DNA from: an uncultured Latescibacterota bacterium | GTDB taxonomy: Bacteria; Latescibacterota; UBA2968 | Direction of reading: 5' to 3' | DNA: 64,000 bases | Assembly: GCA_958295785.1 (NCBI GenBank) | Contig: OY282377.1 | Span: 4,590,896 to 4,654,895, forward strand | In this document: one piece after another, positions 13,813 through 61,200 of the stretch | Layout: each line of letters begins with the position of its first letter | How positions within the stretch are numbered: the first letter of the stretch is position 1 | The notes under the pieces: model-generated | What the model saw: the letters and a program-made list of their open reading frames with translations, nothing else | Told to the model about the DNA's origin: nothing | The model's database searches: none | Made by a program: the position numbers and the translations under genes

Positions 13813-14131
13813 AAACGCCACCTTGAAAAAATTGAGGAACAAAAATGGGGAACAAAAAAATGATACAATCACGCCATTTTTGACAAGACTTTGTTGGACA
13901 AAGATGCGAACATAAAAACGTAGGGACGGTGCCCCGTGCCCGCCCGAAAAGGCAACCACAGAGGGACAAACATTGGGGCGTGCAGATAGAGGACGGAGAA
14001 TGGAGCAGACAGAGAGGACAGAGCGGAGGCAGGAGGGTGGAGGGTAATCCGCGCAATCCCCTAATCCGCGACAATCCGCGATCCAGACAGTGGCGTTGCA
14101 GAGCCTGTGCCAAAACGCCGTAAGCCAGTGC
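13813..14131. repeat. Conserved Rpn unit leader (copy 1)
   Basis: About 320 bp upstream of Rpn gene 1, nearly identical to 15367-15684 and 25906-26224. It contains a copy of the dispersed GTAGGGACGGTGCCC / GCCCGCCC palindrome (about 13919-13948) and an imperfect GCGGATTA/GCGACAATCC repeat zone (14048-14090). I see no gene in it; it should carry the Rpn promoter. Confidence 0.7.
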
Positions 14132-14246
14132 TAAGAAGCCCTACCATAAAGAAATCAAGCGTCTGAAACAGAGGAGTGAACACCCGCAGGAACGCCTCAA
14201 AGGCGGCCTCTCACAAATCCAGGTCAACGCTTTTTGTTCGGGACTC
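14132..14246 (-). mobile_element. IS5-end repeat (MITE-like), copy B
   Basis: Runs from TAAGAAGCCCTACCATAAAG to GTTCGGGACTC, 115 bp, very close to copy A. It separates the two tandem Rpn units and abuts the stop codon of Rpn gene 2. A crossover between copies of this repeat would explain the tandem duplication. Confidence 0.75.
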
Positions 14247-15366
14247 AAGCCTCTGCGTCCAACGCATGCTGAAAAGCATCGAGATTGTCCACTTGCACCG
14301 CCTCACGAAGCAACTGCTTGAGTTGTTGCAAATCGTCAATGGCCCGAATGCGACCGGCGAACTGACCGGGCGCGTCCGCATCAAAGCGAACCTCCAACAC
14401 ATCGAGAATATCTTCAATGGTGCTTTCTCTAATCCCGCGCTCCAGACCCTGTTCAATCCCTTGCTCCCTGCCGCGACGCATCCCCTGTTCAATGCCCTGT
14501 TCAATGCCCTGTTCAATCCCCTGTTCAATCCCCTGTTCAATCCCCTGTTCAATCCCCTGTTCAATGCCCTGCTCAATGCCCTGCTCAATGCCCTGTTCAA
14601 TCCCCTGTTCAATCCCCTGTTCAATCCCCTGTTCAATCCCCTGTTCAATCCCCTGTTCAATGCCGCGGTCAATACCTTGTTGGGTAAGGTATTGGGCAAA
14701 CGATGATTCACGCATAATCGCATCCATAAAACCCTCCTGAGAAATAATACGCCTAACGGTGGACAACTCATACGATATCCCACCTAAAATAGCCATACCC
14801 GCCATCATGTCAACCTTGGTTGAAGCGTCCAAGGGCAAGGCTTCCGTCGCCTGAAGACATTGACGCAACCACGCATCCGCAGACACCCCAGACGGAGGTT
14901 TCATCAAGGGCGCAAACGGAAGCAAGCCCGGATGACCACCCTCGATAATCGCTTGACCATCGATCTCACTCAGACGAATCACCTTGTATTTCACCAGCAC
15001 CTCATGGCCGGGCAGTTCTTGGATGTAGTATCCCTTATCGCGTCGTCCAGCACCGGGACGCAGGTAGATCACAAAGGAAAAGATCGGCAGACCATAGCGT
15101 TCTATGGCGCGACCAATATAGCCGGCCATGCGATGCGACATCGGAGTGTCCGTGCTGTCCGCGGTTTGAAATTCGCAATGAATCAACGCATCCTCGCCTT
15201 CAATACGCACGAGAATCAGGCTATCGGCGCGCCGGGCTTCCACAGTGGGTTGCTCGGTCTCGAGCACCTCGAGCACCTCGATGTCAGCGCGTCCGAGTGT
15301 GAAGCGGATGAAATCGTCCGGGTAGGTTTGAATCAGGTGTTTGGATATCGTATCGTATTCGGCCAT
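14245..15366 (-). CDS. Rpn-family PD-(D/E)XK nuclease/transposase-like protein, copy 2
   Basis: 373 residues from the ATG at 15366 with AAGGTGG upstream. It matches copy 1 apart from a few substitutions (for example KYKVIRLS for EYQVIRLS) and six more GIEQ units (15 in total), which accounts for the 24-residue difference. The nuclease residues in RRADSLILV and ALIHCEFQ are intact. Same strand as the pst genes and located between pstB and phoU, so it may be read from the pst promoter as well as its own leader. Confidence 0.85.
   Translation of the reverse strand: MAEYDTISKHLIQTYPDDFIRFTLGRADIEVLEVLETEQPTVEARRADSLILVRIEGEDALIHCEFQTADSTDTPMSHRMAGYIGRAIERYGLPIFSFVIYLRPGAGRRDKGYYIQELPGHEVLVKYKVIRLSEIDGQAIIEGGHPGLLPFAPLMKPPSGVSADAWLRQCLQATEALPLDASTKVDMMAGMAILGGISYELSTVRRIISQEGFMDAIMRESSFAQYLTQQGIDRGIEQGIEQGIEQGIEQGIEQGIEQGIEQGIEQGIEQGIEQGIEQGIEQGIEQGIEQGIEQGMRRGREQGIEQGLERGIRESTIEDILDVLEVRFDADAPGQFAGRIRAIDDLQQLKQLLREAVQVDNLDAFQHALDAEA
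14484..14663. repeat. 12-bp tandem repeat, 15 units (Rpn copy 2)
   Basis: Fifteen units of CCTGTTCAATCC with some ..ATGC and CTGCTCAATGC variants. It encodes fifteen GIEQ tetrapeptides on the minus strand. The order of variants differs from copy 3, so the tracts have changed independently. Confidence 0.95.
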
Positions 15367-15684
15367 AAACGCCACCTTGAAAAAATTGAGGAACAAAAAT
15401 GGGGAACAAAATTTACACAATCACGCCATTTTTGACAAGACTTTGTTGGACAAAGATGCGAAAATAAAAACGTAGGGGCGGTGCCCCCATGCCCGCCCGA
15501 AAAGGCAACCACAGAGGGACAAACATTGGGGCGTGCAGATAGAGGACGGAGAATGGAGCAGACAGAGAGGACAGAGCGGAGGCAGGGTGGGGGGGGGTAA
15601 TCCGCGCAATCCCCTAATCCGCGACAATCCGCGATCCAGACAGTGGCGTTGCAGAGCCTGTGCCAAAACGCCGTAAGCCAGTGC
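15367..15684. repeat. Conserved Rpn unit leader (copy 2)
   Basis: Near-identical to the leaders of copies 1 and 3, with the GTAGGGGCGGTGCCCCC / GCCCGCCC palindrome at about 15473-15498. No gene seen. Confidence 0.7.
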
Positions 15685-15802
15685 TAAGAAGCCCTACCAT
15701 AAAGAAATCAAGCATCTGAAACAGAGGAGTGAACACCCGCAGGAACGCCTCAAAGGCGGCCTCTCACAAATCCATGGCAACCCTTTTTGTTAGGGACGCT
15801 TA
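15685..15802 (-). mobile_element. IS5-end repeat (MITE-like), copy C
   Basis: Runs from TAAGAAGCCCTACCATAAAG to TTTTTGTTAGGGACGCTTA and stops exactly before the pstB stop codon. It marks the pstB-side boundary of the inserted block; the phoU-side boundary is copy A. The TAA/TTA at its ends are consistent with a TA target site. Confidence 0.75.
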
Positions 15803-25905: not shown

Positions 25906-26224
25906 GCACTGGATTACGGCGTTTTGGCACAGGCTCTGCAACGCCACTGTCTGGATCGCGGATTGTCGCGGATTAGGGGATTGCGCGGATTACCCTCCAC
26001 CCTCCTGCCTCCGCTCTGTCCTCTCTGTATGCTCCATTCTCCGTCCTCTATCTGCACGCCCCAATGTTTGTCCCTCTGTGGTTGCCTTTTCGGGCGGGCA
26101 CGGGGGCACCGCCCCTACGTTTTTATGTTCGCATCTTTGTCCAACAAAGTCTTGTTAAAAATGGCGTGATTGTGTAATTTTTATTCCCCATTTTTTGTTC
26201 CTCAATTTTTTCAAGGTGGCGTTT
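25906..26224. repeat. Conserved Rpn unit leader (copy 3)
   Basis: Same leader as 13813-14131 and 15367-15684 in reverse orientation, including the GCGGATTG/GCGGATTA zone (25957-25990) and the GGGCGGGCACGGGGGCACCG palindrome (about 26092-26118). No gene seen. Confidence 0.7.
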
Positions 26225-27346
26225 ATGGCCGAATACGATACAATATCCAAACACCTGATTCAAACCTACCCGGACGATTTCATCCGCTTCACACTCGGAC
26301 GCGCTGACATCGAGGTGCTCGAGGTGCTCGAGACCGAGCAACCCACTGTGGAATCCCGCCGCGCCGATAGCCTGATTCTCGTGCGTATTGAGGGTGAGGA
26401 TGCGTTGATTCATTGCGAATTTCAAACCGCGGACAGCACGGACACTCCGATGTCGCATCGCATGGCCGGCTATATCGGTCGCGCCATAGAACGCTATGGC
26501 CTGCCGATCTTTTCCTTTGTGATCTACCTGCGTCCCGGGGCTGGACGACGCGATAAGGGATACTACATCCAAGAACTGCCCGGCCATGAGGTGCTGGTGA
26601 AATACAAGGTGATTCGTCTGAGTGAGATCGATGGTCAAGCGATTATCGAGGGTGGTCATCCGGGCTTGCTTCCGTTTGCGCCATTGATGAAACCTCCGTC
26701 TGGGGTGTCTGCGGATGCGTGGTTGCGTCAATGTCTTCAGGCGACGGAAGCCTTGCCCTTGGACGCTTCAACCAAGGTTGACATGATGGCGGGTATGGCT
26801 ATTTTAGGTGGGATATCGTATGAGTTGTCCACCGTTAGGCGTATTATTTCTCAGGAGGGTTTTATGGATGCGATTATGCGTGAATCATCATTTGCCCAAT
26901 ACCTTACCCAACAAGGTATTGACCGCGGCATTGAACAGGGCATTGAACAGGGCATTGAGCAGGGCATTGAGCAGGGCATTGAACAGGGCATTGAACAGGG
27001 CATTGAACAGGGCATTGAACAGGGCATTGAGCAGGGCATTGAGCAGGGCATTGAACAGGGCATTGAGCAGGGCATTGAACAGGGGATTGAACAGGGGATT
27101 GAACAGGGGATGCGTCGCGGCAGGGAGCAAGGGATTGAACAGGGTCTGGAGCGCGGGATTAGAGAAAGCACCATTGAAGATATTCTCGATGTGTTGGAGG
27201 TTCGCTTTGATGCAGACGCGCCCGGTCAGTTCGCCGGTCGCATTCGGGCCATTGACGATTTGCAACAACTCAAGCAGTTGCTTCGTGCGGCGGTGCAAGT
27301 GGACAATCTCGATGCTTTTCAGCATGCGTTGGACGCAGAGGCTTGA
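26225..27346 (+). CDS. Rpn-family PD-(D/E)XK nuclease/transposase-like protein, copy 3
   Basis: 373 residues from the ATG at 26225 with AAGGTGG upstream. Nuclease motifs RRADSLILV and ALIHCEFQ are intact, with 15 GIEQ units and the same C-terminus as copies 1 and 2. It is bounded by IS5-end repeats D and E and is in the opposite orientation, some 10 kb from the tandem pair, so the unit has moved as a block. It lies directly before ppk1. Confidence 0.85.
26928..27107. repeat. 12-bp tandem repeat, 15 units (Rpn copy 3)
   Basis: Fifteen units of GCATTGAACAGG, with GAGCAGG and GGATTGAACAGG variants, encoding GIEQ. The variant order is unlike copy 2 although the count is the same. Confidence 0.95.
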
Positions 27347-30454: not shown

Positions 30455-30493
30455 GTTCTTGCCGCTTTGCTACGCGTACACAGACATGCTTTC

Positions 30494-31426
30494 TAAGAAG
30501 CCCCAACAAAAAGCGTTGCCATGGATTTGTGAGAGGCCGCTTTTCTTCTCAGCCCAACCCTTACAACGTCCATGCCCGGCATCTGCAACCGGGCGAGGAG
30601 GGACAAATGTCCAAACCATGGGTGAGCGATGAACTCTGGGAAAAGGGCCACCCCCTTTTGCCGGTTCCCAAGCCTGGACGATTCCGCTTTCCCGGACGTA
30701 AGCGCATTGACGACCGCAAGGCGTTGACCGGCCTTCTATTCGTCCTGAAGAGCGGCATCCCGTGGGAGAGATTGCCCCAAGAGATGGGGTGGGGTTCCGG
30801 GATGACCTGCTGGCGTCGTCTGAAGGCATGGCATGACGCCGGCGTGTGGGAGCGGCTTCATCATCTGCTGTTGTCCAAACTGCGAGCGGCCGACGGCCTG
30901 GACGGGTCTCGTGCCTGCGTGGACAGCGCCTCCCTGCGTGCGGTAGGCACTGGGGGGAAAAACCGGCCCCAATCCCACAGACCGCCGCAAGCCCGGGCGT
31001 AAGCATCATGGGATCACCGATGCCAACGGGCTACCTCTGGCCGCGATTGTGACCGAGGCGAACCGGCCAGATGTGACGCAATGGGTGCCATGGGTGGACG
31101 CCGTGCCTGCGGTCAGAGGCAAACGCGGTCGTCCGCGCCGCAGACCCCAACGGCTGTATGCAGACCGTGCCTATGACTCGAAGGCACACCGGAAGGCCCT
31201 GCGTGCGCGCCACATCTGGCCGGTGATCGCCCGGCGGGGTACAGCGCATGGCAGCGGGTTGGGCGTGTACCGGTGGGTCGTTGAGCGGACGCTGGCCTGG
31301 CTCCGTCAGTTCCGCAGCCTGCGGGTGCGCGACGAACGCAGAGCGGACCTCCATGCGGCGTTCCTCTCCATCGGCTGTTCACTCCTCTGTTTCAGACGCT
31401 TGATTTCTTTATGTTAGGGCTTCTTA
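30494..31426 (+). mobile_element. IS5-family insertion sequence, copy F
   Basis: 933 bp from TAAGAAGCCCCAACAAAAAG to TTATGTTAGGGCTTCTTA, with terminal inverted repeats of about 18 bp and a TA on each side, as in IS427-like IS5 members. Both flanking genes (RND pump, cysteine hydrolase) are truncated at its ends, indicating insertion plus deletion. Same ends as the roughly 115-bp repeats A-E. Confidence 0.88.
30607..31417 (+). CDS. IS5-family transposase in two frames (probable frameshift product)
   Basis: The first frame starts at ATG 30607 (GAGGAGGGACAA upstream), reading MSKPWVSDELWEKGHPLLPV with the DUF4096-type N-terminus and the first catalytic Asp in SRACVDSASLRAVG. At a GGGGGGAAAAA run near 30951-30961 the sequence must shift by +1 to continue KHHGITDANGLPLAAIVTEA, QRLYADRAYDS (second Asp) and VYRWVVERTLAWLRQ (Glu). 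The same shift is present in copy G, so it is likely a programmed frameshift, as known in IS427-type elements, and not random damage. Confidence 0.82.
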
Positions 31427-34273: not shown

Positions 34274-34489
34274 GCAAACCAAACGACATTGCTATGGGCG
34301 AAGCTACCACCGACTGACCGTTCAACAAATCGGTTTTCCTTTTGCATATATATCGTATAATTAGGCGGTACCGGTCAACTGACACGGCTTTTTGAACAAG
34401 GCCGTAATGGAAACTGGCAACACATGCGGACTTTGCTGAATAAGGGCATCAGCACAGGCTATGGACCTCATAACTATTGGGAGGCAGGT

Positions 34490-35607
34490 ATGAACCGCCC
34501 TAAAACAAAATTTCAGGGCATCCAGGATTCGACCGAGTTTCAGATTGGTAAGGACAATTGCTCGGCAACAAAGAATGAGGCAATGCTGAATAAAGGCAAC
34601 CTGAATAACAGCATGTCAGCCCAGGCCCTGAATACAGGCACCCTTGCTAGAAACATTCAAGGGCGTGCGTTGAAAACGGTTTCTCTTTTTGCCGGATGCG
34701 GGGGTCCGATAAAGGGCTGATCGATACAGGTTGCGAGATTTTGATGGCAAACGATATTCTGGCCTATGCCAAAGAGGTCTATGAAGCAAATCTCCCCGAG
34801 ACCGATTTCAAGACCGATAGTATTGACCAAATCAAAGCCTTTCCATCAGCGGATGTTTTGGCGGGATGCTATCCTTGCCAAGGCTATTGTCAAGGCGGAG
34901 CACGCGACGCCGGGCGCAAAATCAATAGACTTTACCGCGAATTTGATCGCGCTCTGCGGAAGATCCGTCCCAAAGTCTTTATTGTAGAAAACGTACCTGG
35001 GATGGCGAGAAGTAATAATCGACATTTTTTGAAAGCACAACTCGTCCGTTTCCGTTTGGCTGGATACCGCGTCAACTGGGACTTCATCAATGCCGCACAG
35101 TACGGTCTGGCACAAGAAAGGCAACGGATTTTTATCGTCGGCATTCGCTCAGATTTCGGGGTAAAATACGAGTTTCCAAAACCCACACACGGCCCGGGAT
35201 TGCAACCGGTAAAAACACAGCGAGATTTCTTAGGAGACTTGAAGGAAGAATGGCCCGAAGGCGAATTTTGCGATCAGGATTTTCATTGGTATTATCTCTC
35301 CCGTGACCGCTACCGAGGATGGGATGAACCAAGCAAAACAATACTCGCAAACGCACGCCACATGCCGTTGCACCCAATGAGTCCGCCGCTAAAAAAGATA
35401 GGAAAAGATAAATGGGTTTTCCAAGGAGACCCCAAAAAAGCCCGCCGGCTTTCGTACAAAGAAGCAACAACCCTTCAAGACCTCGGTAGTTGGGGGTTTC
35501 CAGACACGACGGGATTGATGAATAAATACAAGGTCATTGGCAATGCCGTGCCGCCGATGATCTTCCGACAAATTTTTGAAGCCCTACCGGGAGAGGTGTT
35601 CTCATGA
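34490..35607 (+). CDS. DNA (cytosine-5) methyltransferase, frameshifted at a G run
   Basis: C5 methylase that transfers methyl from AdoMet to cytosine. Two frames together cover it: MNRPKTKFQG.. to motif I TVSLFAGCGG in the first, then DKGLIDTGCEILMANDILAY in the second. Further motifs: PCQGYCQGG (catalytic Cys), VFIVENVPGM, QERQRIFIVGIR, and the C-terminal VIGNAVPPMI. The break is at a GGGGG run (about 34698-34702); one more G would restore GCGGSDKG. The first 60 residues before motif I are an unusual extension. ATG with GGGAGG upstream. The stop overlaps the next start (ATGA), so the operon is coupled. Real frameshift, phase switch and assembly error are all possible. Confidence 0.82.
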
Positions 35608-36671
35608 ATTTTAAGACACTCAATATTAACCAGCTCGAGTTTGACAAAAAAAATCCGCATCTGCCGACTACGGTAGGGCCAAAAGAACCCGAAATTATCA
35701 AGTATCTGGCAAAAACCGGCATTGAGGACTTGATGATCTCTATCGGGGAGAACGGATTTTTCCCGGGCGAAGCCATTGTTGCAACTCCTGCAAAAAACAA
35801 CAAATACACAGTCTTGGAGGGCAATCGCAGACTGGCAGCGTTGCGACTGTTGCAAAACCCGGATTCAGCGGGCAACCGCCGTAGCATTACAAAAGCTTCA
35901 GAAGGAGCGAAAAACAAGCCAACCGAAATTCCAGCGTATATAGTCAATTCAAGAGATGATGCCTTGCAATATCTGGGCTTTCGCCACATTTCTGGGGTCC
36001 AACGATGGGATCCTTTGGCAAAGGCGCGATACTTAAAATTGTTGTTCGAGCAAACATCGGGTGAACCGGAAAAACGCTGTATTGAGGTTGCCCGTGAAAT
36101 CGGTAGCAGGCGCGATGCAGTCCGACGAAATCTGGATGCTTTGGCGGCGTACGAAGCCATTGAGGAACGCGACTTTTTCGACATTAAAGACCTGGACGAA
36201 GAAAATTTTCAGTTTGGCACATTCTATACGGCTATCGCAAACGCGGAAATCGCGTCATTTGTTGGCGTCAGGGAAAAAGACGGTAGAGCAACATACCCCA
36301 TTGCCAATCCAAAATCCTTAAAGAAAGAACATCTTGCAGAACTCACGGAGTGGATGTTCAAAAAAGAGAGTCAGGGTTCCACACGCCTCGTCGAGTCTCG
36401 AAATATTCCCAAATTAAATGAGGTCATAGAAAATTCTAACGCACTGGAAAAGCTCCGGCAAGGTGTGTCATTAGATAGTGCTTATAGTGCTACAATAGAT
36501 AACAAAAAGGTGTTTTTACAAGATATAGTCAACGCTACTGAACATCTTAAGCAAGCAAACTCTAATCTGCACTCCGTATCGTCTGATGATCGTGATGTGG
36601 TGGAGCGCGTCCGAGAAGCAATGAAAGCACTTAATATAGCAACCAACCACTTAAAGGTGGATTCACAATGA
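35604..36671 (+). CDS. ParB/Srx-fold domain protein
   Basis: 355 residues. The N-terminal ParB/sulfiredoxin-like domain shows LEGNRRLAALRLL (about 71-83), the GNRR/GERR box where ParB-type CTPases and nucleases bind nucleotide. A following helical part (WDPLAKARYLKLLF, IGSRRDAVRRNLDAL, about 140-180) looks like the ParB helix-turn-helix. The C-terminal half is unrecognised. Its place between a methylase and a nuclease-like gene, with ATGA overlaps at both ends, argues for a role in a DNA-modification/defence system and not in chromosome partition. Confidence 0.75.
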   Translation: MNFKTLNINQLEFDKKNPHLPTTVGPKEPEIIKYLAKTGIEDLMISIGENGFFPGEAIVATPAKNNKYTVLEGNRRLAALRLLQNPDSAGNRRSITKASEGAKNKPTEIPAYIVNSRDDALQYLGFRHISGVQRWDPLAKARYLKLLFEQTSGEPEKRCIEVAREIGSRRDAVRRNLDALAAYEAIEERDFFDIKDLDEENFQFGTFYTAIANAEIASFVGVREKDGRATYPIANPKSLKKEHLAELTEWMFKKESQGSTRLVESRNIPKLNEVIENSNALEKLRQGVSLDSAYSATIDNKKVFLQDIVNATEHLKQANSNLHSVSSDDRDVVERVREAMKALNIATNHLKVDSQ

Positions 36672-37618
36672 TTGATTTTCCTTGGAGTCAAGAGATAGTT
36701 AAAGATGTCGTTGATTTGACCGACTGCATTGAGTTGACCGTCGCATTCTCAGACGCCGACTACGGTGGTCGTTTCACACGCGCAGATTTTAACTCAGTTC
36801 AAAATGAGATTTTGGATGATGACGGTTTTTTTCAAGGCGAGCAAGTTGATAATCTTAATGCACACTTTGAAGAGGCGATGGCTCTTATCAAAAACCGCGC
36901 ATTATGGTTGGGGGAAACCTACCCTTTCAGGCAAGACGATGGTGAAGTGCTGTTTGCGCCTCAAACATCCAAGAAACACTATTTGTCGTATCTGTTCTTG
37001 CTGGCCTGTTCGTGCCATAATTGGATTCCCTCTTTTCGGCATGCTCTGAGTGTAGAGTTTGAAAATCTATGCAAAGAGGCGATGCGGGCGTTGTTTCCCG
37101 ATTGGGCAGAGGTTTTTCTGTTCAGTCAAAACAGCAAAGATAGAAAAAAACTTGGGTGGTCCGCACGCGAGGCCATTCCAGCCTTGGCAAAAAAGTTAAA
37201 TGCCCAAGTGCCACCAAATGCCAGACTTTCCAATACGCAACGCGAATACGGCATTGATTTGATTGCCATTTGTTCTTTTGGAGATGTATTGGAGTACCCA
37301 TTTTTCGCCTTCGCTCAATGCACAGTGGCAAAAGAGTGGTGGACGAAAAAACACGAAGCCCAAAGTCGTCATGCCTTATCGGGAGTCATGCAGTTAGATA
37401 CAGATCATACAAATTTTTTGTTGATACCCCATTTCCCGCGCATCAACCTCAAAGAATGGCGGGAAGATCGGTCACATACCATCAACTGCATTCTATGCGA
37501 CCGATACAGAATATGTCGGTTGCTGGAGAAATCTAAGCCGTTGACATGCCAAGCTCTGCCATGTGGTATGCGTAAGATTTTTCAAGAGATTCAGAAACAC
37601 CTGCCAGAGCACCATTGA
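36668..37618 (+). CDS. Probable PD-(D/E)XK-type nuclease of a restriction module
   Basis: 316 residues with no family I can name. EYGIDLIAI (Asp about 197) followed by PFFAFAQCTVAKEWWTKK (Gln 217, Lys 222) fits the D-x(n)-(E/Q)xK nuclease core seen in restriction endonucleases with Gln for Glu. A Cys-containing C-terminus (CILCDRYRICRLL, about 271-283) may bind metal. It overlaps the ParB-like gene by four bases and is last of the three-gene operon, so restriction endonuclease is the simplest reading. This is inference. Confidence 0.6.
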   Translation: MIDFPWSQEIVKDVVDLTDCIELTVAFSDADYGGRFTRADFNSVQNEILDDDGFFQGEQVDNLNAHFEEAMALIKNRALWLGETYPFRQDDGEVLFAPQTSKKHYLSYLFLLACSCHNWIPSFRHALSVEFENLCKEAMRALFPDWAEVFLFSQNSKDRKKLGWSAREAIPALAKKLNAQVPPNARLSNTQREYGIDLIAICSFGDVLEYPFFAFAQCTVAKEWWTKKHEAQSRHALSGVMQLDTDHTNFLLIPHFPRINLKEWREDRSHTINCILCDRYRICRLLEKSKPLTCQALPCGMRKIFQEIQKHLPEHH

Positions 37619-37643: not shown

Positions 37644-40082
37644 CTACTCCCCCCACACCCTTCCCACCGCATCGCGTATCTTCTCCTCGAATCGCTCGAT
37701 CAATTCCCGGTTGCCATCCACCAATGCCTGCTCCGCCTCAATCTCGGCGACGATGGCTCGTTGGGTTTCAAGGGGTGGTATCGGAAATTTAACCCGCTTC
37801 AAGGCGTTGCCATTGAATTGGGGTTGGCCGCCACCAGTTGCGAGGACTTGGGCTTGGTTCCTGTAGGCGTCACTTTGAGCAAATGCCCAGTAATAGCTTG
37901 GATGAACGCGGTCAGGGAAACGAAGGCGAATCAAGTAAGAAGCAAAAACCGCTGGGTGTTCTTCATCAAACAGCATTGTTTTGCCGTAAGTCGCCCCAGT
38001 TCTGGCAACCAGTATATCGCCTTTTGTGAGTAATAATCTCCGTGAGTCATCTGTCAGCGTAACAAATTTGGCTCCATCTGATCGGAGCGTTCCATCCTCG
38101 GCAATGTCGGTGATGCGAATGAACCTAGCCTCCCCTTCATCCTGCGCGCTTGCTGTAAAGCCGTATTGCGGTTTTGTAAGTTCACCAATCGCCACCATCG
38201 GCCACTTGGGATCAATCGCAATATGTGGGCGATAGTTCTCCACCACAGTCCGTGCGCCATCAATGACGCGCTGATAGCCCTCAATTTCCGCGACGATCTC
38301 CTGTTGCACCTCCAGCGGTGGCAAGGGGATTTCGTAATCTTTCAATTTAGAAAAATGTCGCCGGTAGCCATCTTTCACCAGCGGTCTAGCACGCAGGATA
38401 TGATACAAAAATCGCGGGTCAACAGCCTCAACTGTGCGGAGTATTTTTATTCCATCCGCTCCCTGAGCAAAGGGCGTTTCAATCAATTTCACCGCACATG
38501 TATGATCCCCGAATATCACAAGTGGCTTACTTGGGTGAATCAAGACCTTTTCGTCGTCGATCCATCCGGCAATTTCCTGTTGCGACTGATCTATGATAGG
38601 ATATCGCCCTGTTTCAAGGAAAGCAGTTCTCGGTATCTTAGATGGCGGCGTAATCGTTTCAATAAAGGCACCGATTTTCCGCAAAGGGTAGGCCACAGAT
38701 TGAAGTGCGCGTTCCTTGTATTTTTCCCCGCTCAAATTGTACTCTCCGCCCTCCGCGACCCGATCTTTCCCAACGATCAACCCGCGCTCTGTTTTGTACT
38801 GTATGCCTTGTTCTGCGACTTGGGAAGCGTCCGCCGATTCGCCTGTTCGCAGATGGCGCAAGTATTCGGCGAGTTCGGCTTGCACTTGTGGCAGGTCGTT
38901 CTCGGCGATGGGGCGGCGTTGCGCGCCCAAGTCGAAGCCGTCGTTTGCCACCTTGAAAAACGCGATGTGGTCGGTCTTCTTTGCGAGGGATTTGTCCAAA
39001 ATCAGGATGGAAGTCTTGACGCCCGAATAGGGTTGGAACACCCCTGCCGGCAGCGAGACGACGGCGATGAGATGGGCTTCAATTAGCATCTTTCGCAACT
39101 GCTTGTGGGCGTTCTGGCTCTGGAAAATGATCCCCTCGGGAATGATGATCCCCGCACGTCCGGCGGGCGTGATATGCTCGGCGATGTAATCGACAAACAG
39201 AACCTCGCTGCGCTTTGATTGCACGGAAAATCGGCGGTGCGGACGAATGCCTCCCTTCGGCGACATAAACGGCGGATTGGCGAGGATGACGTCGGCGAAC
39301 TCGTTCCACTTATCCTCGCTGGTGAGCGTGTCGTACTCATAGATTTGCGGCTCGGCGAACTCGTGCAGGTACATATTCACCAGCGACAGACGCACCATAT
39401 CCGGCGAAATGTCGTAGCCCTTGAAGTTGGCAGCGAGTCGGCCCTTGTCGTCTATCGTCAGCGTGCTGTGGCCGTCGCTGTCCATGTTCGCCTCGAGAAT
39501 GTGCTTGTAGGACGAGATCAGAAATCCCGCCGTGCCACAGGCCGGGTCGAGCACGGTTTCGTCCTTTTTCGGATCGAGAATGGCGACGATGAAGTCGATG
39601 ATGTGGCGCGGCGTGCGAAACTGCCCGGCGTCGCCCTGCGAACCGAGCACGGAGAGCAGATATTCGTAGGCATCGCCGAGGCGCTCGGGATGGTCGTAGG
39701 TGAACTCGTCGATCACCTTGAGAAACGCGCGCAGCGTCTCCGGGTCTCGATACGGCAAAAAGGCATTGTTGAAGATGTTGCGAAACAGCGGCGGAATGCC
39801 GGGATTCTCGGGCATTTTCGCAATGGCCTCCGCGTATAGGGCGAGCATCTCGTAACCGCCAAGCCCGCCACGCATCAACTTTGCCCAGCCATAGCGCGCG
39901 AACGCATCGGCGAAAAACCCGCGCTTCCCGCCCAATTCCTCGCTCTGCGCGTCCATGTCGTCCATGAACTTGTAGATCAGCGCAATGGTAATTTGCTCCA
40001 CCTGACTCTTGGGATCGGGCACCTTGCCGACCAAAATATCGCGTGCCGTATCGATCCGGCGTTTCGTCTCAGCGTCTAGCAT
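37644..40082 (-). CDS. hsdM: Type I restriction-modification M-S fusion (HsdM + HsdS)
   Basis: 812 residues. The first about 480 are an N6-adenine methylase with the N12 helical domain, motif I VLDPACGTAGFLIS and catalytic NPPF in DVILANPPFMSP. The rest is a specificity subunit with two target-recognition domains (ITPPSKIPRTAFLETGRYPI; MVAIGELTKPQYGFTASAQD) and conserved helical spacers PLEVQQEIVAEIEGYQ and PLETQRAIVAEIEAEQ. Fusion of M and S is known in some type I systems but unusual. ATG at 40082 with AAGGAA upstream. It points towards the truncated hsdR, whose loss would leave modification without restriction. Confidence 0.9.
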   Translation of the reverse strand: MLDAETKRRIDTARDILVGKVPDPKSQVEQITIALIYKFMDDMDAQSEELGGKRGFFADAFARYGWAKLMRGGLGGYEMLALYAEAIAKMPENPGIPPLFRNIFNNAFLPYRDPETLRAFLKVIDEFTYDHPERLGDAYEYLLSVLGSQGDAGQFRTPRHIIDFIVAILDPKKDETVLDPACGTAGFLISSYKHILEANMDSDGHSTLTIDDKGRLAANFKGYDISPDMVRLSLVNMYLHEFAEPQIYEYDTLTSEDKWNEFADVILANPPFMSPKGGIRPHRRFSVQSKRSEVLFVDYIAEHITPAGRAGIIIPEGIIFQSQNAHKQLRKMLIEAHLIAVVSLPAGVFQPYSGVKTSILILDKSLAKKTDHIAFFKVANDGFDLGAQRRPIAENDLPQVQAELAEYLRHLRTGESADASQVAEQGIQYKTERGLIVGKDRVAEGGEYNLSGEKYKERALQSVAYPLRKIGAFIETITPPSKIPRTAFLETGRYPIIDQSQQEIAGWIDDEKVLIHPSKPLVIFGDHTCAVKLIETPFAQGADGIKILRTVEAVDPRFLYHILRARPLVKDGYRRHFSKLKDYEIPLPPLEVQQEIVAEIEGYQRVIDGARTVVENYRPHIAIDPKWPMVAIGELTKPQYGFTASAQDEGEARFIRITDIAEDGTLRSDGAKFVTLTDDSRRLLLTKGDILVARTGATYGKTMLFDEEHPAVFASYLIRLRFPDRVHPSYYWAFAQSDAYRNQAQVLATGGGQPQFNGNALKRVKFPIPPLETQRAIVAEIEAEQALVDGNRELIERFEEKIRDAVGRVWGE

Positions 40083-40175
40083 GGGATTTCCTTTTTGCGC
40101 CACAAAAAGCACAAAGGGCACACAAGGGGTTTTGAACCTTTTGTCATTTGAATTGGCTATCGCGCCTCTTGTGGC

Positions 40176-41055
40176 TCAAACAAACTGATTCAACGACACA
40201 TAGTCCTTGACGTATTCGGGAATGAGTGTGCGGTACTCCGCCGGCACAGCGCGAAAGTCGTTCAGGGAAAAGACCGCGTTGGTCGCCAGAACCGGGAAGT
40301 GCCGCCTGTCGATGATGTCCCGCGTCCCGCCGCTGGTGACGTATGCCTTGAAGAATGTCTTGATCGCCGGGATGGACTCGGCCAAAGCCGGCTTGTGGTC
40401 GGCGACGAACTTGGCGACCTCCTCTTCGAGCAACTCGTCTTTGGACTTGAAGCGCGGGATGAGGTCAAAGACCTTTTCCAGAATCTCGCGCAGGGTCAGG
40501 CGGCGGTCCACCGCAGCGGCGCGGCGCAGCTTGTCGAGGGTGTAGTACTCCTCGGGCTTATCGAAAACTTCTCGATTCACATAGTCGATGACCCGGTCCC
40601 ACTGCCCGGCCTCAACGGCCTCTGCGATGATCTCGTCTCGGCGCACTGCGTCCGCAAACCGGTCAAAAAACATGCGGTCGATCCGCATCCCCTCCAGCCC
40701 AATGCGTTCCTCTCGAATCTCCACGAGCGCGTCCTGCCCCAAGTGCTGATATGCACCGAGATAGGGCGCCCGCTCATCAACGCCTTTCCGGACTTGACCA
40801 CGCTGGGGCCGGGGCAATGCCAACACCTCGTCGTCGTTGAACGCGGTCTCGAAGTATTCGCAGTTGCCAAAAAAGTCGAAGAGCTTGAACGCGGTCTTCT
40901 CCGGCTCCGCGACCCCGTCCTTCAGGCTGTCGTCGAAAAGCAGGCCGAGAAAATTGTGTCGCCGAGTGCCGCGGCCCTTGATCTGAATAAAGTCCGTAGG
41001 CGAAAAGATGGGCCGGAACAGGCCGAGGTTGAGAATGTCCGGGCAATCGTAAAAC
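40176..41055 (-). pseudogene. hsdR: Type I restriction subunit R, C-terminal remnant
   Basis: The frame contains DCPDILNLGLFRPIFSPTDF and QIKGRGTRR (helicase motif VI), then the C-terminal domain AVDRRLTLREILEKVFDLIP up to YVKDYVSLNQFV. The endonuclease domain and helicase motifs I-V, over half the protein, are missing: homology starts abruptly near 41055 beside a repeat-rich segment. It cannot restrict DNA. It stands where hsdR is expected, upstream of hsdM-S. Confidence 0.8.
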
Positions 41056-41697: not shown

Positions 41698-42627
41698 TAA
41701 GAAGCCCTAACATAAAGAAATCAAGCGTCTGAAACAGATGAGTGAACAGCCGATGGAGAGGAACGCCTCATGGATGTCCGCTCTGCGTTCGTCGCGCACC
41801 CGCAGTCTGCCGAACTGCCGGAGCCAGGCCAGCGTCCGCTCAACGACCCACCGGTACACGCCCAACCCGCTGCCATGCGCTGTACCCCGCCGGGCGAACC
41901 GGCCAGATGTGGCATGCACGCAGGGCCTTCCGGTGTGCCCTCGAGTCATAGGCACGGTCTGCATACAGCCGTTGGGGTCTGCGGCGCGGACGACCGCGTT
42001 TGCCCCTGACCGCAGGCACGGCGTCCACCCATGGCAACCATTGCGTCACATCTGGCCGGTTCGCCTCGGTCACAATCGCGGCCAGAGGCAGCCCGTTGGC
42101 ATCGGTGATCCCATGATGCTTACGCCCGGGCTTGCGGCGGTCTGTGGGATTGAGGCCGGGTTTTCCCCCCAGCGCCTACCGCACGCAGGGAGGCGCTGTC
42201 CACGCAGGCACGAGACCCGGCCAGGCCATCGGCCGCTCGCAGTTTGGACAACAGCAGATGATGAAGCCGCTCCCACACGCCTGCTTCATGCCATGCCTTC
42301 AGACGACGCCAGCAGGTCATCCCGGAACCACACCCCATCTCTTGGGGCAACTGCTCCCATGGGATGCCGCTCTTCAGGACGAATAGAAGGCCGGTCAACG
42401 CCTTGCGGTCATCAATGCGCTTACGTCCGGGAAAGCGGAACCGTCCAGGCTTGGGAACCGGCAAAAGGGGTTGGACCTTTTCCCAGAGTGCATCGCTCAC
42501 CCATGGTTTGGACATTTGTCCCTCCTCGCCCGGTAAAGATGCCGGGCATGGACGTTGTAAGGGTTGGGCTGAGAAGAAAAGCGGCCTCTCACAAATCCAT
42601 GGCAACGCTTTTTGTTAGGGACTCTTA
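41698..42627 (-). mobile_element. IS5-family insertion sequence, copy G
   Basis: 930 bp with ends TAAGAAGCCCTAACATAAAG and TTTTTGTTAGGGACTCTTA, very close to copy F. It truncates the gene starting at 42998. The transposase carries an extra deletion, so this copy cannot move by itself. Confidence 0.88.
41707..42515 (-). pseudogene. IS5-family transposase, copy G, inactivated
   Basis: Starts MSKPWVSDALWEKVQPLLPV at 42515 and has the same +1 shift site (GGGGGGAAAA) as copy F. Near 41897-41902 two bases (GA of GGTGATCGCC in copy F) are missing, giving a premature change of frame (HIWPVRPAGYSAWQ) before the segment GLGVYRWVVERTLAW with the catalytic Glu. Confidence 0.82.
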
Positions 42628-43010
42628 GGATCAAAAATGCCCAGCGCAATAACGGGTTTTTGATAGGGGCTCTCCTGCGCGATTACCGAACTCGTCAAAA
42701 GTCCAATGCCAATGATAATATCCACGTCCTGATCTTGCATCAGACGGTCATAGTTTTTGGCAACGACACGGGCAGACCAATCTGCGCCCAGAATTTTGTC
42801 TTCCAAAATTCGGATATGATATTTTGACCCCAAAAGCGCGTTCAGTTCGCGTTTTAATGGCTCAAGCCAAATACCTGTTGCCCTCTGTTGACCATCATCC
42901 GCGATGATGCCGATAGCGACGTGCTCTTTTTGACTTTGAGCACAAACGTCAGGCTCAATAAGAGCACCCAAAAGAAAACGCCAAACACAACAGGCCATCT
43001 GTCATTCATA
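42628..43010 (-). pseudogene. N-terminal fragment of a periplasmic substrate-binding-like protein (TolC-associated type)
   Basis: The signal peptide MNDRWPVVFGVFFWVLLLSL has a proper start (GGAAGG upstream, ATG about 43008) but continues in a frame that soon ends; the mature sequence (AQSQKEHVAIGIIADDGQQR, then KYHIRILEDKILGADW and VDIIIGIGLLTSS) is in another frame. It resembles the ABC-substrate-binding-like N-terminal domain found in some TolC-family outer-membrane proteins. IS5 copy G cuts it at GIFDP, so it is damaged at both ends. Confidence 0.55.
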
Positions 43011-55289: not shown

Positions 55290-58200
55290 TCAGAAATTCA
55301 ACTGACCGCGCAACATCACGCCGTGATTCGCCGCGGCACTGGCCTCATCGCGCATCCCTTCAAGGCTCACATTCCCCAACCCGCCGATCTCCACCCGACC
55401 GCCAAAGCGATAGCCCTGCGTGCCATCCTCCGAGAACCGAAACCCACTATAAGGCGTGAGCAACCCGGCGAACATCGGCACCGTGTACCCGACCTCTGTA
55501 TCCATCTGCATCGTCGGCGCAAAGCTGTTCAGTCCCGCGCCCACCGCGCCTTGCTCCCACAACTGCGCCACGCCACTGCCCGTCTCGCCATAAGACGGTT
55601 GCACTTGGAACGACAGACCGCGAGCATCGTCACGGGGACTAAACCGCACGGAAAGCCCCGCGCTCCACTCCTTTGTATCGCCTGTGTGTGCGAGCAAAAT
55701 TCGGCTCGTCGCCTCCACTGTCAGTCGCACTGCCGCATAGCGCACCCCTCCGCCGAGTTCAACCCCGGTGCCGGTCTGCCCATCGCCGGCATCCATCCGC
55801 ATGCCGAGCTCCATCGACGGCGTCAGCGATGCGCCCGAGGCGAATCCAAAAGTATGCGCGGCTTCTCCGGCCAAGCGCAAGCGTTGGGTATTTGCGGTTA
55901 CACCCTCAATCCCATCGCCATTGTCATCAACCGCCAAGCGCGTCATCCACGCCTCGCCCTTCAAATCGAATGACGACAAGCCCCCAGACAGGCGCACGCG
56001 CCCACCCGCTGCCGCAGTCCTCAGATCGCTGTCGCTCGTCTGATGCCCGACCTTTTCATCATCCATCGCAACCTCGCCTCGGCCATAGCCGGCTGTTGCC
56101 CACAGGTTTGACCCCATCGGCGAAGACCAACTCAAATAGGGATGGGCACTCACCATGCGGCTTTCGTGTGTGCCATCAACCGCCTCGCCATAACCCTGAT
56201 CCGTGTAAGTGACCGACCCCTCAAACCAAGAGCCTACAAGCCCTGCGATGAAGCCGTTGCCAAAGCGCATGTCTGCGCCCAGATGTGCGGCAAAGAGATC
56301 GCCATCCCATGAAATCGGCGCGTCACCACTGAGACTCAGGCGTCGAAAATCGCTCGCGCCCCACAGCGCGCCAACACCTCTGCCACGCCCGGCGTTGAGG
56401 GTGTCTGCATGGTCATGGGAGAGCGGGAGGGCAAAGGACGACCCCCCGATCACTTCTTGCCATGACCTTGTGCCCTCTTTGATCGCGTATTCGCTCGCCA
56501 TCACCTTGCTAGCGACAAACGAAAGGGCCGCTTCCGAGTTCATGATCCCCGGCGCACGCGAAGTGCCTTCCTGATCGATACGCCCCGTCAGCGCGTCCAG
56601 GGTGCTCGTTCGCATCGCACGCGAAAGTTCGGGCAGAATCAACTCGTTTATCGCCTTGAGCCGCGTGCGGTCCGAAACCTCAATGGCAATCGTAAAAATC
56701 AGTTCCGCCACATCGCCATCCTCATCTGTCACCATCCACTTGTATGCCGTCTCATTCATCGGCGTGGTCGGCGTTCCAGAGATAATGCGCGTCGCCGCAT
56801 CGAGCACCAAACCAGCAGGCAGGGTCGGCGTCAGGCTGTAGGTCAGCGGTGCATCGCCACCCGTCGCCAATGGCAACGTGAGCGGCGCTATCGCCCTGCC
56901 TGCCCGATAGCGTTGCGGCCCGACCGTCTCGGTGAACCTCGGAATCAGATCCGCATCCACCTCAACAGTGAAGACCAGCATAGCCGTATCGCCATCTTCA
57001 TCCGTCGCAGTCCAGATACATTCCGTCGCAACCATCGCCTCGGTCGGCATCCCAGAAAGCATCCGCGTTGCCAAGTCAAACGTCAACCCAGCAGACGGGC
57101 CAGGCGTCAGCGCGTAAGTCAGCGTCCCATCGCCACCCGTCGCCAATGGCAACGTGAGCGGATCAATTGGCTGGTACTGAATATAGTTCTGCGCGCCCAC
57201 TGTATCTGTGAACGCCGGCACCAAATCCGCCGCCACCTCAATGGTGAACGTCAGGGTCGCTGTATCGCCATCTTCATCTGTCGCAGTCCAACTGTACTTG
57301 GTATCGTCTATATCTTCCAGCGGCGTGCCGGAAATGACCCGCGTCGTTTTATCAAACGATAGCCCATTAGGCAACGGCGGCTCCAGATCGTAATTCAACA
57401 CACCATCGCCACCCGTCGCCAATGGCAACGTGAGCGGATCAATTGGCTGGTACTGAATATAGTTCTGCGCGCCCACTGTATCTGTGAACGCCGGCACCAA
57501 ATCCGCCGCCACCTCAATGGTGAACGTCAGGGTCGCTGTATCGCCATCTTCATCTGTCGCAGTCCAACTGTACTTGGTATCGTCTATATCTTCCAGCGGC
57601 GTGCCGGAAATGACCCGCGTCGTTTTATCAAACGATAGCCCATTAGGCAACGGCGGCTCCAGATCGTAATTCAACACACCATCGCCACCCGTCGCCAATG
57701 GCAACGTGAGCGGATCAATTGGCTGGTACTGAATATAGTTCTGCGCGCCCACTGTATCTGTGAACGCCGGCACCAAATCCGCCGCCACCTCAATGGTGAA
57801 CGTCAGGGTCGCTGTATCGCCATCTTCATCTGTCGCAGTCCAACTGTACTTGGTATCGTCCATATCTTCCAGTGGCGTGCCGGAAATGACCCGCGTCGTT
57901 TTATCAAACGATAGCCCATTAGGCAACGGCGGCTCCAGATCGTAATTCAACACACCATCGCCACCCGTCGCCAATGGCAACGTGAGCGGATCAATTGGCT
58001 GGTACTGAATATAGTTCTGCGCGCCCACTGTATCTGTGAACGCCGGCACCAAATCCGCCGCCACCTCAATGGTGAACGTCAGGGTCGCTGTATCGCCATC
58101 TTCATCTGTCGCAGTCCAACTGTACTTGGTATCGTCCATATCTTCCAGTGGCGTGCCGGAAATGACCCGCGTCGTTTTATCAAACGATAGCCCATTAGGC

Positions 58201-61200
58201 AACGGCGGCTCCAGATCGTAATTCAACACACCATCGCCACCCGTCGCCAATGGCAACGTGAGCGGATCAATTGGCTGGTACTGAATATAGTTCTGCGCGC
58301 CCACTGTATCTGTGAACGCCGGCACCAAATCCGCCGCCTCAATGGTGAACGTCAGGATCGTCTCATCCCCATTTTCATCCGTCGCAGTCCAAGTGTACTC
58401 GGTATCGTCTATATCTTCCAGCGGCGTGCCGGAAATGACCCGCGTCGTTTTATCAAACGATAGCCCATTAGGCAACGGCGGCTCCAGATCGTAATTCAAC
58501 ACACCATCGCCACTCGTCGCCTCCGGCAAAACGAACGGCGGGACCAATGGTTGATCCCCCATAGACGCCCCGTCTATCGCATCCGTGAATACCGGTACCG
58601 AATTTGGGGGTGTTACCTCAATGGTGAATGTCAGGGTCGCTGTATCGCCATCTTCATCTGTCGCAGTCCAACTGTACGCGGTCACGCTCATCGTCGCGCT
58701 CGGCGTACCAGAGATCATCCGCGTCGTCTGATTGAAACTCAGACCCTCCGGCAACCCCGGACTCAGCGCGTAGGTCAGCACACCATCGCCACCCGTCGCC
58801 AATGGCAATGTAAGCGGATCAATCGTCTGATTCTGAACATAGCTTTGCGCGGCTACCGTATCCACAAACGACGGCGTGAGGTCAACGTTTCTGGGCAGGG
58901 CCTGTTGCACGTCAACCGTGATCGTGAACGTCAGTTCCGCTTTGTCGCCATCTTCATCTGTCGCAGTCCAACTGTACGCGGTCGCGTTCATCGTCGCGCT
59001 CGGCGTACCAGAGATCATCCGCGTCGTCTGATTGAAACCCAAACCATCCGGCAAACCCGAACTCAGCGCGTAGGTCAGCACACCATCGCCACCCGTCGCC
59101 AATGGCAACGTGAGCGGATCAATCGCACGGTTCTGAACATAGCGTTGTGCAACTACTGTATCTAAAAATGACGGCGTGAGGTCAACGTTTCTGGGCAGGG
59201 CCTGTTGCACGTCAACCGTGATCGTGAACGTCAGTTCCGCTTTGTCGCCATCTTCATCTGTCGCAGTCCAACTGTACGCGGTCGCGTTCATCGTCGCGCT
59301 CGGCGTACCAGAGATCATCCGCGTCGTCTGATTGAAACCCAAACCATCCGGCAAACCCGAACTCAGCGCGTAGGTCAGCACACCATCGCCACCCGTCGCC
59401 AATGGCAACGTGAGCGGATCAATCGCACGGTTCTGAACATAGCGTTGTGCAACTACTGTATCTAAAAATGACGGCGTGAGGTCAACGTTTTTGGGCAGGA
59501 CCTGTTGCACGTCAACCGTGATCGTGAACGTCAGTTCCGCTTTGTCGCCATCTTCATCCGTCGCAGTCCAAGTATACGTCGTCTCACTCAGTGCCATAGT
59601 CGGCGTGCCGGTCACCTGCCGCGTAGTCGCATCTCGCGTGATACCATCCGGCAGAGAAGGACTCAGGTCATAGGACAAAGTGCCATCACCACCACTCGCA
59701 GCCGGAAGCGTGAACGCCGCGATCTGTTCATCCTTTATCCATGTTTTGTCGTCCACCTCATCGGCAAACGACGGCTTCAAATCCGCCTTCACCTCTATCG
59801 TGAACGTCAGGGTCGCTGTATCGCCATCTTCATCTGTCGCAGTCCAAGTATAGGGGGTTTCTCCTGACGACACGCTCGGCGTACCGCTGACGCGGTGGTT
59901 GGCATCCTTCGTTACACCCTCCGGCAACCCCGGACTCAGCGCGTAAGTCAGCACACCATCGCCACCCGTCGCCAATGGCAACGTGAGCGGATCAATCGTC
60001 TGATTCTGAACATAGCTTTGCGCGGCTACCGCATCGACAAACGCCGGCAACAGATTCTCTGTCACCACAACGAAGAAACTCAGGGTCGCCTCATCCCCAT
60101 CCTCATCGGTCACCGTCAGATCGTAGCGCGTCTTGCCCTTTGGCTCGGTTGGTATGCCAGCCATAACACCGCCATTGCTTTCCCCATTGGCCGGTGAGGT
60201 GTACGCCAGCCCAGCAGGTGGCGTCATCGCGTAGGTCAACGTCCCATCGCCCCCCGTCGCCTCGGGAAAGACCAATGGTGTGATGGCCTTGCCTTGCCGA
60301 TAGCGTTGAAAATCCACTGCATCCGTAAATGTAGGCACCGAATTTGAGGACGCGGGCACCACCTCTATCGTGAACGTCAGTTCCGCTGTATCGCCATCTT
60401 CATCTGTCGCAGTCCAAGTGTACTCGGTCGCGTTCATCGTCGCGCTCGGCGTACCAGAGATCATCCGCGTCGTCTGATTGAAACGCAAACCCTCCGGCAA
60501 ACCCGGACTCAGCGCGTAGGTCAACGTCCCATCGCCACCGGCCGCCAATGGCAACGTGAGCGGATCAATCGTCTGGTCCTGAACATAGCTTTGTGCCCCC
60601 ACCGTATCTGTGAACGACGGCAACAGATCTGAAAGCACCCGACTCGCCGTTACCTCTATCGTGAACGTCAGGGTCGCTGTATCGCCATCTTCATCCGTCG
60701 CAGTCCAAGTATACGTCGTCTCACTCAGTGCCATAGTCGGCGTGCCGGTCACCTGCCGCGTAGTCGCATCTCGCGTGATACCATCCGGCAAACCCGGACT
60801 CAGGTCATAGGACAAAGTGCCATCACCACCACTCGCAGCAGGAAGCGTGAACGCCGCGATCTGTTCATCCTTTATCCATATTTTGTCGTCCACCGCATCG
60901 CCAAACGTCGGCTTCAAATCCGCCTTCACCTCTATCGTGAACGTCAGTTCCGCTTTGTCGCCATCTTCATCTGTCGCAGTCCAAGTATAGGGGGTTTCTC
61001 CTGACGACACGCTCGGCGTACCGCTGACGCGGTGGTTGGCATCCTTCGTTACTCCATCCGGCAAACCCGGACTCAGCGCGTAGGTCAGCGTCCCATCGCC
61101 ACCGGTCGCCAATGGCAATGTAAGCGGATCAATCGTCTGGTCCTGAACATAGCTTTGTGCCCCCACCGTATCTGTGAACGACGGCACCTGATCAAGCACC

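Follow-up and report, generated by a model that had tools for sequence, protein, structure and literature searches.

The window, a 64,000-nucleotide stretch of DNA, lies within a single-contig genome of 5.66 Mb, the closest matches of which among prokaryote species genomes are Candidatus Latescibacterota MAGs. Three genes follow one another on its plus strand: a disrupted C5 cytosine DNA methyltransferase gene (34490..35607), a gene for a 355 aa ParB-type NTPase-fold protein with an HTH-like helical region (35604..36671), and a gene for a 316 aa protein with a predicted PD-(D/E)XK-type fold (36668..37618), referred to below as gene 3. The ATGA overlaps that the initial annotation placed at both junctions are present, at 35604-35607 and 36668-36671, and genes 2 and 3 are intact open reading frames (ORFs).

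Facing the operon on the minus strand is an ORF for an HsdM-HsdS fusion (N6_Mtase + Methylase_S, 37644-40121), behind which lies a 216-aa ORF (40176-40826, minus strand) that resembles the C-terminus of HsdR and has no Pfam match. The type I locus described earlier is therefore there in its HsdM-HsdS part, but no full-length HsdR ORF adjoins it, and the system looks truncated. The neighbours of the operon in the window are a DUF2283 protein and HsdM-HsdS, with no parA, and a ParABS partition system was rejected on the absence of this partner. Two copies of an IS4/5-type (DUF4096) transposase, 96% identical and inverted (30493-31426 and 41698-42628), flank a segment (31.4-41.7 kb) within which both the operon and the remnant of the type I system lie. 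Elsewhere in the window, an ORF at 26195-27346 encodes a long series of GIEQ four-residue repeats, the segment 25894-27461 has an inverted copy at 14130-15696 (97% identical), and a tandem-repeat array with a period of ~276 bp and long repeats that are 73-90% similar occupies 56712-61764. The genome also carries gene 3 a second time, in degenerate form (L007 7563-8273; G000:C1 ~3679562-3680272), with 85-87% DNA identity, internal stops, and neither ParB nor methylase.

Frameshift in the C5 methylase gene

The C5-methylase motifs reported previously are present (PF00145, 7.2e-49 for 34696-35607). The view of 34490-35607 as one gene is not upheld, as this span measures 1118 nt, which is not a multiple of 3, and is divided between two frames. 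The N-terminus and motif I (SLFAGCGG) are encoded in the ORF 34424-34720, which ends in SLFAGCGGPIKG and a stop and of which 34490-34720 is the part belonging to the gene; the PCQ, ENV, QERQR and IGNAVPP motifs are in the other frame, in the ORF 34696-35607. The methylase is intact in three close relatives (L051-L053, 353 aa) and in a fourth (L054). In a nucleotide alignment with these four homologues, one base is missing from motif I of the window methylase at GCGG-GGGTCC (34698..34704, plus strand), where the window has GCGGGGGTCC and three of the four homologues have GCGGAGGCTCC. Downstream of the lesion, dN/dS against the relatives is 0.06-0.08. With so low a value and an intact pair of genes 2 and 3, the lesion is either very recent or an assembly error.

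The frameshift rate of the assembly was judged from other gene families of the genome only; its other strong C5-methylase and helicase matches are mostly full-length open frames, with several C5 methylases truncated. With 15 C5-methylase matches, at least nine of them covering nearly the full profile, the genome is unusually methylase-rich. The nearest PADLOC model to gene 1 is DruM2; Druantia was considered and rejected, since DruM2 matches the methylase only and the locus has no DruE helicase or companion ORFs. With its methylase frame broken, the system here may no longer work or may be out of balance, provided that the break is not a sequencing error; the operon in this genome is probably disabled or mis-sequenced.

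Predicted folds of the ParB-type protein and gene 3

The ParB box LEGNRR of the initial annotation is confirmed in gene 2: EGNRR resembles ParB box II and is nearly invariant in 95 relatives, with G73, N74, R75 and R76 invariant. A second signature, RHxxGxxxWxxxxKARY, stands where canonical ParB has an ENxQR motif. Family matches to gene 2 are a weak one to Pfam ParB_N (0.067) and one to TIGR00180 (1.5e-4); the PADLOC matches to PD-Lambda-5_A and PDC-M38A are strong but partial, covering the ParB half only. The AlphaFold2 model (pLDDT 95.0, from an 86-sequence alignment) has as its top PDB matches ParB-CDP (7bm8, E 1.8e-5), KorB and Noc, and gene 2 is thus predicted to have a ParB-CTPase fold, including the arginine of box II (P motif). 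According to a 2025 survey of the ParB fold (PMC12704722), nucleotide specificity is not predictable from the sequence of such proteins.

Pfam, NCBIfam and PADLOC assign gene 3 to no family, and matches among its relatives are sporadic: PADLOC mREase_II is matched by three family members (best 6e-5, weak) and Pfam Mrr_cat by two (best 0.016, weak). It corresponds to phrog_3984, of unknown function. Its nuclease-like character, claimed earlier from sequence motifs, is supported by structure prediction, which yields a restriction-endonuclease-like fold and no settled non-nuclease fold. The AlphaFold2 model (pLDDT 92.5, pTM 0.92, from an 89-sequence alignment) finds MspJI as its best Foldseek match (probability 1.00, E 3.7e-3, TM ~0.3), followed by BsaWI, BsoBI and EcoO109I and, lower down, Can2, EcoT38I and NucC. 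As none of the matches is at E<=0.001, the fold call draws on the agreement of many weak ones. A profile search independently retrieves the MspJI sequence, though weakly (E 0.13), and GDGGVD...LGQAKC of MspJI aligns with GDxGLD...LxQCAC of gene 3, the stretch from D197 to Q217. The model, with restriction enzymes as its top matches, points to a PD-(D/E)XK-type nuclease fold.

The nuclease core proposed for gene 3 (D197, Q217, K222) stands in its first two residues, which are invariant in 89 of 89 sequences, but not in its third: K222 is found in 34/89, and the conserved lysine is K227 (87/89). The position two residues after Q217 is never lysine in these 89 sequences, being A, G or T instead. 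W224 (83/89) and E132 (69/89) are present in most of the sequences, and the candidate active site is formed by E132, D197, Q217 and K227, with the lysine apparently shifted to the next helix. The Cys-rich end pointed out earlier is not part of what is conserved in the family. Purifying selection acts on both genes 2 and 3, with dN/dS against relatives of 0.22-0.24 for gene 2, where one ParB comparison is saturated, and 0.10-0.25 for gene 3.

A conserved pair with an exchangeable modification partner

ParB-based searches were made in viral contigs and in 84,980 prokaryote species genomes, the best 80 of 194 relatives being taken from the latter. These searches, supplemented by a small number of phage, plasmid, E. 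coli and genome loci and cleared of duplicates and of the window's own locus, gave a set of 128 loci. Gene 3 follows ParB in 118 of these 128 ParB-anchored loci, mostly overlapping it or at a distance of 25 nt or less. The bacterial genomes among the best 80 of 194 relatives belong to Latescibacterota, Chloroflexota, Bacteroidota and further groups. In an independent search, gene 3 was the starting point and viral contigs were scanned with two sub-alignments; 62 distinct loci were found. ParB is directly upstream in 61/61 testable loci of this search, and a C5 methylase is within 3.5 kb in the same proportion (61/61 testable), which refutes chance linkage. Gene order in other genomes, named earlier as a check on the operon, is thus strongly conserved for the ParB-gene 3 pair in both directions of search.

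Three kinds of modification partner accompany the 118 pair loci: a C5 methylase in 65, a D12 m6A methylase in 13 and DndCDE in 20. No locus of the 128 (best 80 of 194 prokaryote relatives included) has two kinds together. The C5 partner is found downstream and convergent, upstream and co-directional, as in the window, or downstream and co-directional. The D12 partner belongs to the PD-Lambda-5_B family (4.6e-94 for locus L029), and the Dnd partner is DndC-DndD-DndE(HerA), mainly in loci of Bacteroidota. In the remaining 20 pair loci a partner was not found; some of these cases, not all, are contig-edge effects, and a sample of ten neighbour proteins from partnerless pair loci includes no other modification enzyme. 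In a quick IQ-TREE analysis of ParB + gene 3 (111 rows), the D12 loci form one clade (98*), and the tree requires at least two changes of chemistry and at least five of C5 gene order. Since both chemistry and order have switched on the tree, the link to a DNA mark does not go back to a single chance arrangement. What is constant is the ParB-gene 3 pair together with some DNA mark, and the methylase is exchangeable.

Some loci carry additional genes. A HARE-HTH + Mrr_cat endonuclease (neighbour cluster c24) lies downstream of gene 3 in L082, L084 and L086, giving two candidate restriction effectors per locus in some Dnd-type cassettes. On a contig labelled phage (L006 3605-8444), two diverged ParB-gene 3 pairs face each other and adjoin a Z1-domain-like gene, and in a plasmid locus (L050) the pair is found beside DUF262, Z1 and DUF4420 genes.

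In P2-like prophages of E. coli the cassette is gp98-gp96-mth of Wphi, and it is also found in the phages vB_EcoM-12474 and P. aeruginosa D14A. The P2-like copies are situated between the portal and replication-endonuclease genes, a site that is a published defence hotspot of P2 (PMC9519451). The Wphi-type ParB-gene 3 pair is present in 103 of 5426 complete E. coli genomes, and the methylase has >99% identity in 103/103. A further 36 genomes have a methylase at 93%, the same number as match the 12474-type cassette at >=99%. Full C5 cassettes are found in well over 100 of the 5426 genomes. Asymmetric decay was also considered for E. coli, as IS insertions affect ParB or gene 3 and never the methylase among the matches listed; it was set aside because the events are too few.

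Relation to known systems and proposed working

Among experimentally tested systems, PD-lambda-5 (Vassallo et al. 2022, PMC9519451) comes nearest; it defends E. coli from the majority of the phages used in the tests. The cassette is therefore not wholly unknown. The two have in common the ParB-type N-terminal half (hhalign 99.9%, residues 3-225) and an adjacent DNA methylase, which in the D12 clade of the cassette is from the PD-Lambda-5_B family itself and in the window is a C5 methylase instead. However, proteins of the PD-lambda-5_A type are 440-520 aa long, with an unrelated C-terminal domain of their own and no separate gene 3, and gene 2 matches PD-Lambda-5_A over its N-terminal 140-240 residues only, not over its full length. 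PD-lambda-5_A was considered as a fusion of ParB and gene 3, and this was rejected as its C-terminal half has no match to gene 3 (hhalign 0.2%); for the same reason the cassette is seen as a sister architecture and not as a member of PD-lambda-5. PDC-M38A (715 aa) was also rejected, since its ParB part alone matches and it has no gene 3.

Resemblances to other known systems are likewise partial. The cassette is like a Type II restriction-modification system in combining a DNA methylase, adjacent and frameshifted in the window, with a protein of predicted restriction-endonuclease fold, but differs in its obligate ParB-type third gene (61/61 testable gene-3-first loci), in its exchangeable methylase chemistry and gene order, and in that phosphorothioation can replace the methylase. 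The 20 Dnd loci, mostly of Bacteroidota, link the pair to DndC-DndD-DndE(HerA), although it is not DndFGH, DndI or DndB as these are named in the available part of a 2024 reappraisal (PMC10853773), and no ParB-REase pair is among the nucleases beside Dnd in that part. MspJI/Mrr-like endonucleases give gene 3 its best structural match, and the D and Q of the core align, but the similarity is weak and a Q-x-K is missing, the lysine being apparently on the next helix. Gene 2 resembles the canonical ParB/Noc/KorB CTPases in its predicted NTPase fold with HTH and its box II arginines, and is unlike them in having RHxxGxxxW for the ENxQR-type C motif, in lacking a parA neighbour in the window, and in the fixed association of its family with DNA modification genes.

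Genes for HEPN proteins adjacent to those for ParB and DNA methylases, as well as fusions of HEPN with ParB, are described in a 2013 survey (PMC3710099). The available part of the 2025 ParB-fold survey (PMC12704722) covers fusions and nucleotide binding, including DndB, and does not feature a ParB-gene 3 cassette. No published description of the three-part cassette was found in the open-access literature, as distinct from subscription papers and preprints. The initial annotation had proposed an undescribed system of methylase, ParB-fold protein and nuclease-like protein, the core of which holds in gene order and fold; it has to be qualified in that PD-lambda-5 shares the ParB half and one methylase family.

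The operon probably represents a modular restriction-modification-like system, with an invariant core of the ParB-type NTPase and gene 3 and a partner that marks the DNA of the host. This partner is most often a C5 methylase, whereas one clade has the D12 methylase and another the DndCDE enzymes of phosphorothioation. The partner enzyme would mark target sites in the host DNA, and the ParB protein would use its HTH and NTP-dependent domain to bind sites that lack the mark, where it might close into a sliding clamp in the manner of canonical ParB. It would then deliver or activate gene 3, which would cut the unmarked DNA. Support comes from gene content, gene order, tight linkage, partner switching, predicted folds and purifying selection, and from these we infer cutting by gene 3, nucleotide binding and loading by ParB, protection by the mark, and phage as the target. 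A broader proposal, which we consider rather doubtful, is that the core is agnostic to the mark: an NTP-switched ParB clamp would scan DNA and license the nuclease wherever the host mark is absent, and would have evolved to combine with any modification (5mC, m6A, phosphorothioate). Such a core would make a nucleotide-gated class of restriction distinct from types I-IV.

Restriction of unmarked DNA best explains the combination of a nuclease-fold protein, a ParB-type switch and an exchangeable marking enzyme. Against it are the weak similarity to MspJI, the 20 pair loci with no recognised modification gene, and the absence from gene 3 of the usual Q+2 lysine, so that the part of this lysine would fall to K227 on the next helix. 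This last point could also mean that gene 3 is a catalytically dead, DNA-reading nuclease fold and that the ParB protein or another factor does the damage, nicking by ParB/Srx proteins being cited in PMC12839542; as D197, Q217 and K227 hardly vary even between distant lineages, unlike in typical dead folds, we regard this as quite improbable. The main rival follows from the description of PD-lambda-5, the closest tested relative, as a compacted RM+Abi by its authors (PMC9519451). According to it, ParB-gene 3 is a self-killing effector that is restrained by an intact mark and unleashed by a phage that inhibits or dilutes this mark. Sensing of mark failure would explain swaps between very different chemistries, and there are known cases of HEPN effectors encoded next to ParB and a DNA methylase (PMC3710099). 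However, PD-lambda-5-type proteins have no gene 3 and a C-terminal half unlike it, and gene 3 resembles restriction enzymes, though the suicide DNase NucC is also among its weak structural matches; self-killing is accordingly judged unlikely. The many copies in P2-like prophages could suggest that the cassette serves temperate phages in regulation or in maintaining lysogeny, as a module of a ParB-like DNA binder and a methylase with no role in restriction. The P2-like copies occupy a defence hotspot, however (PMC9519451), the bacterial relatives span several phyla, among them Latescibacterota, Chloroflexota and Bacteroidota, and the partners include Dnd, which makes such a module very improbable.

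A frameshifted methylase beside an intact pair also speaks against the restriction reading, as a toxic module should not tolerate such a loss, unless the frameshift is a sequencing error or another C5 methylase of the genome protects. It raises a question that is separate from the function of the family, namely whether the operon in this genome is a decaying remnant, with its methylase dead and the pair near loss. The degenerate second gene 3 and the several truncated C5 methylases of the genome are in keeping with decay; the intact state and low dN/dS of ParB and gene 3 (0.10-0.25), and of the methylase past the lesion (0.06-0.08), argue against it, and its chances are put a little short of even.

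The cassette is real, conserved and wider than first thought, and as far as searched it is uncharacterised. If restriction of unmarked DNA is indeed its function, this would explain two phage gene families of unknown function, phrog_3984 and phrog_3694, along with the classic Wphi genes gp98-gp96-mth, and the P2 versions in E. coli make the cassette directly testable in K-12. It would also mean that restriction effectors need not be tied to one chemistry of DNA marking, and that ParB-type NTP switching, familiar chiefly from chromosome segregation, has a part in self/non-self discrimination.
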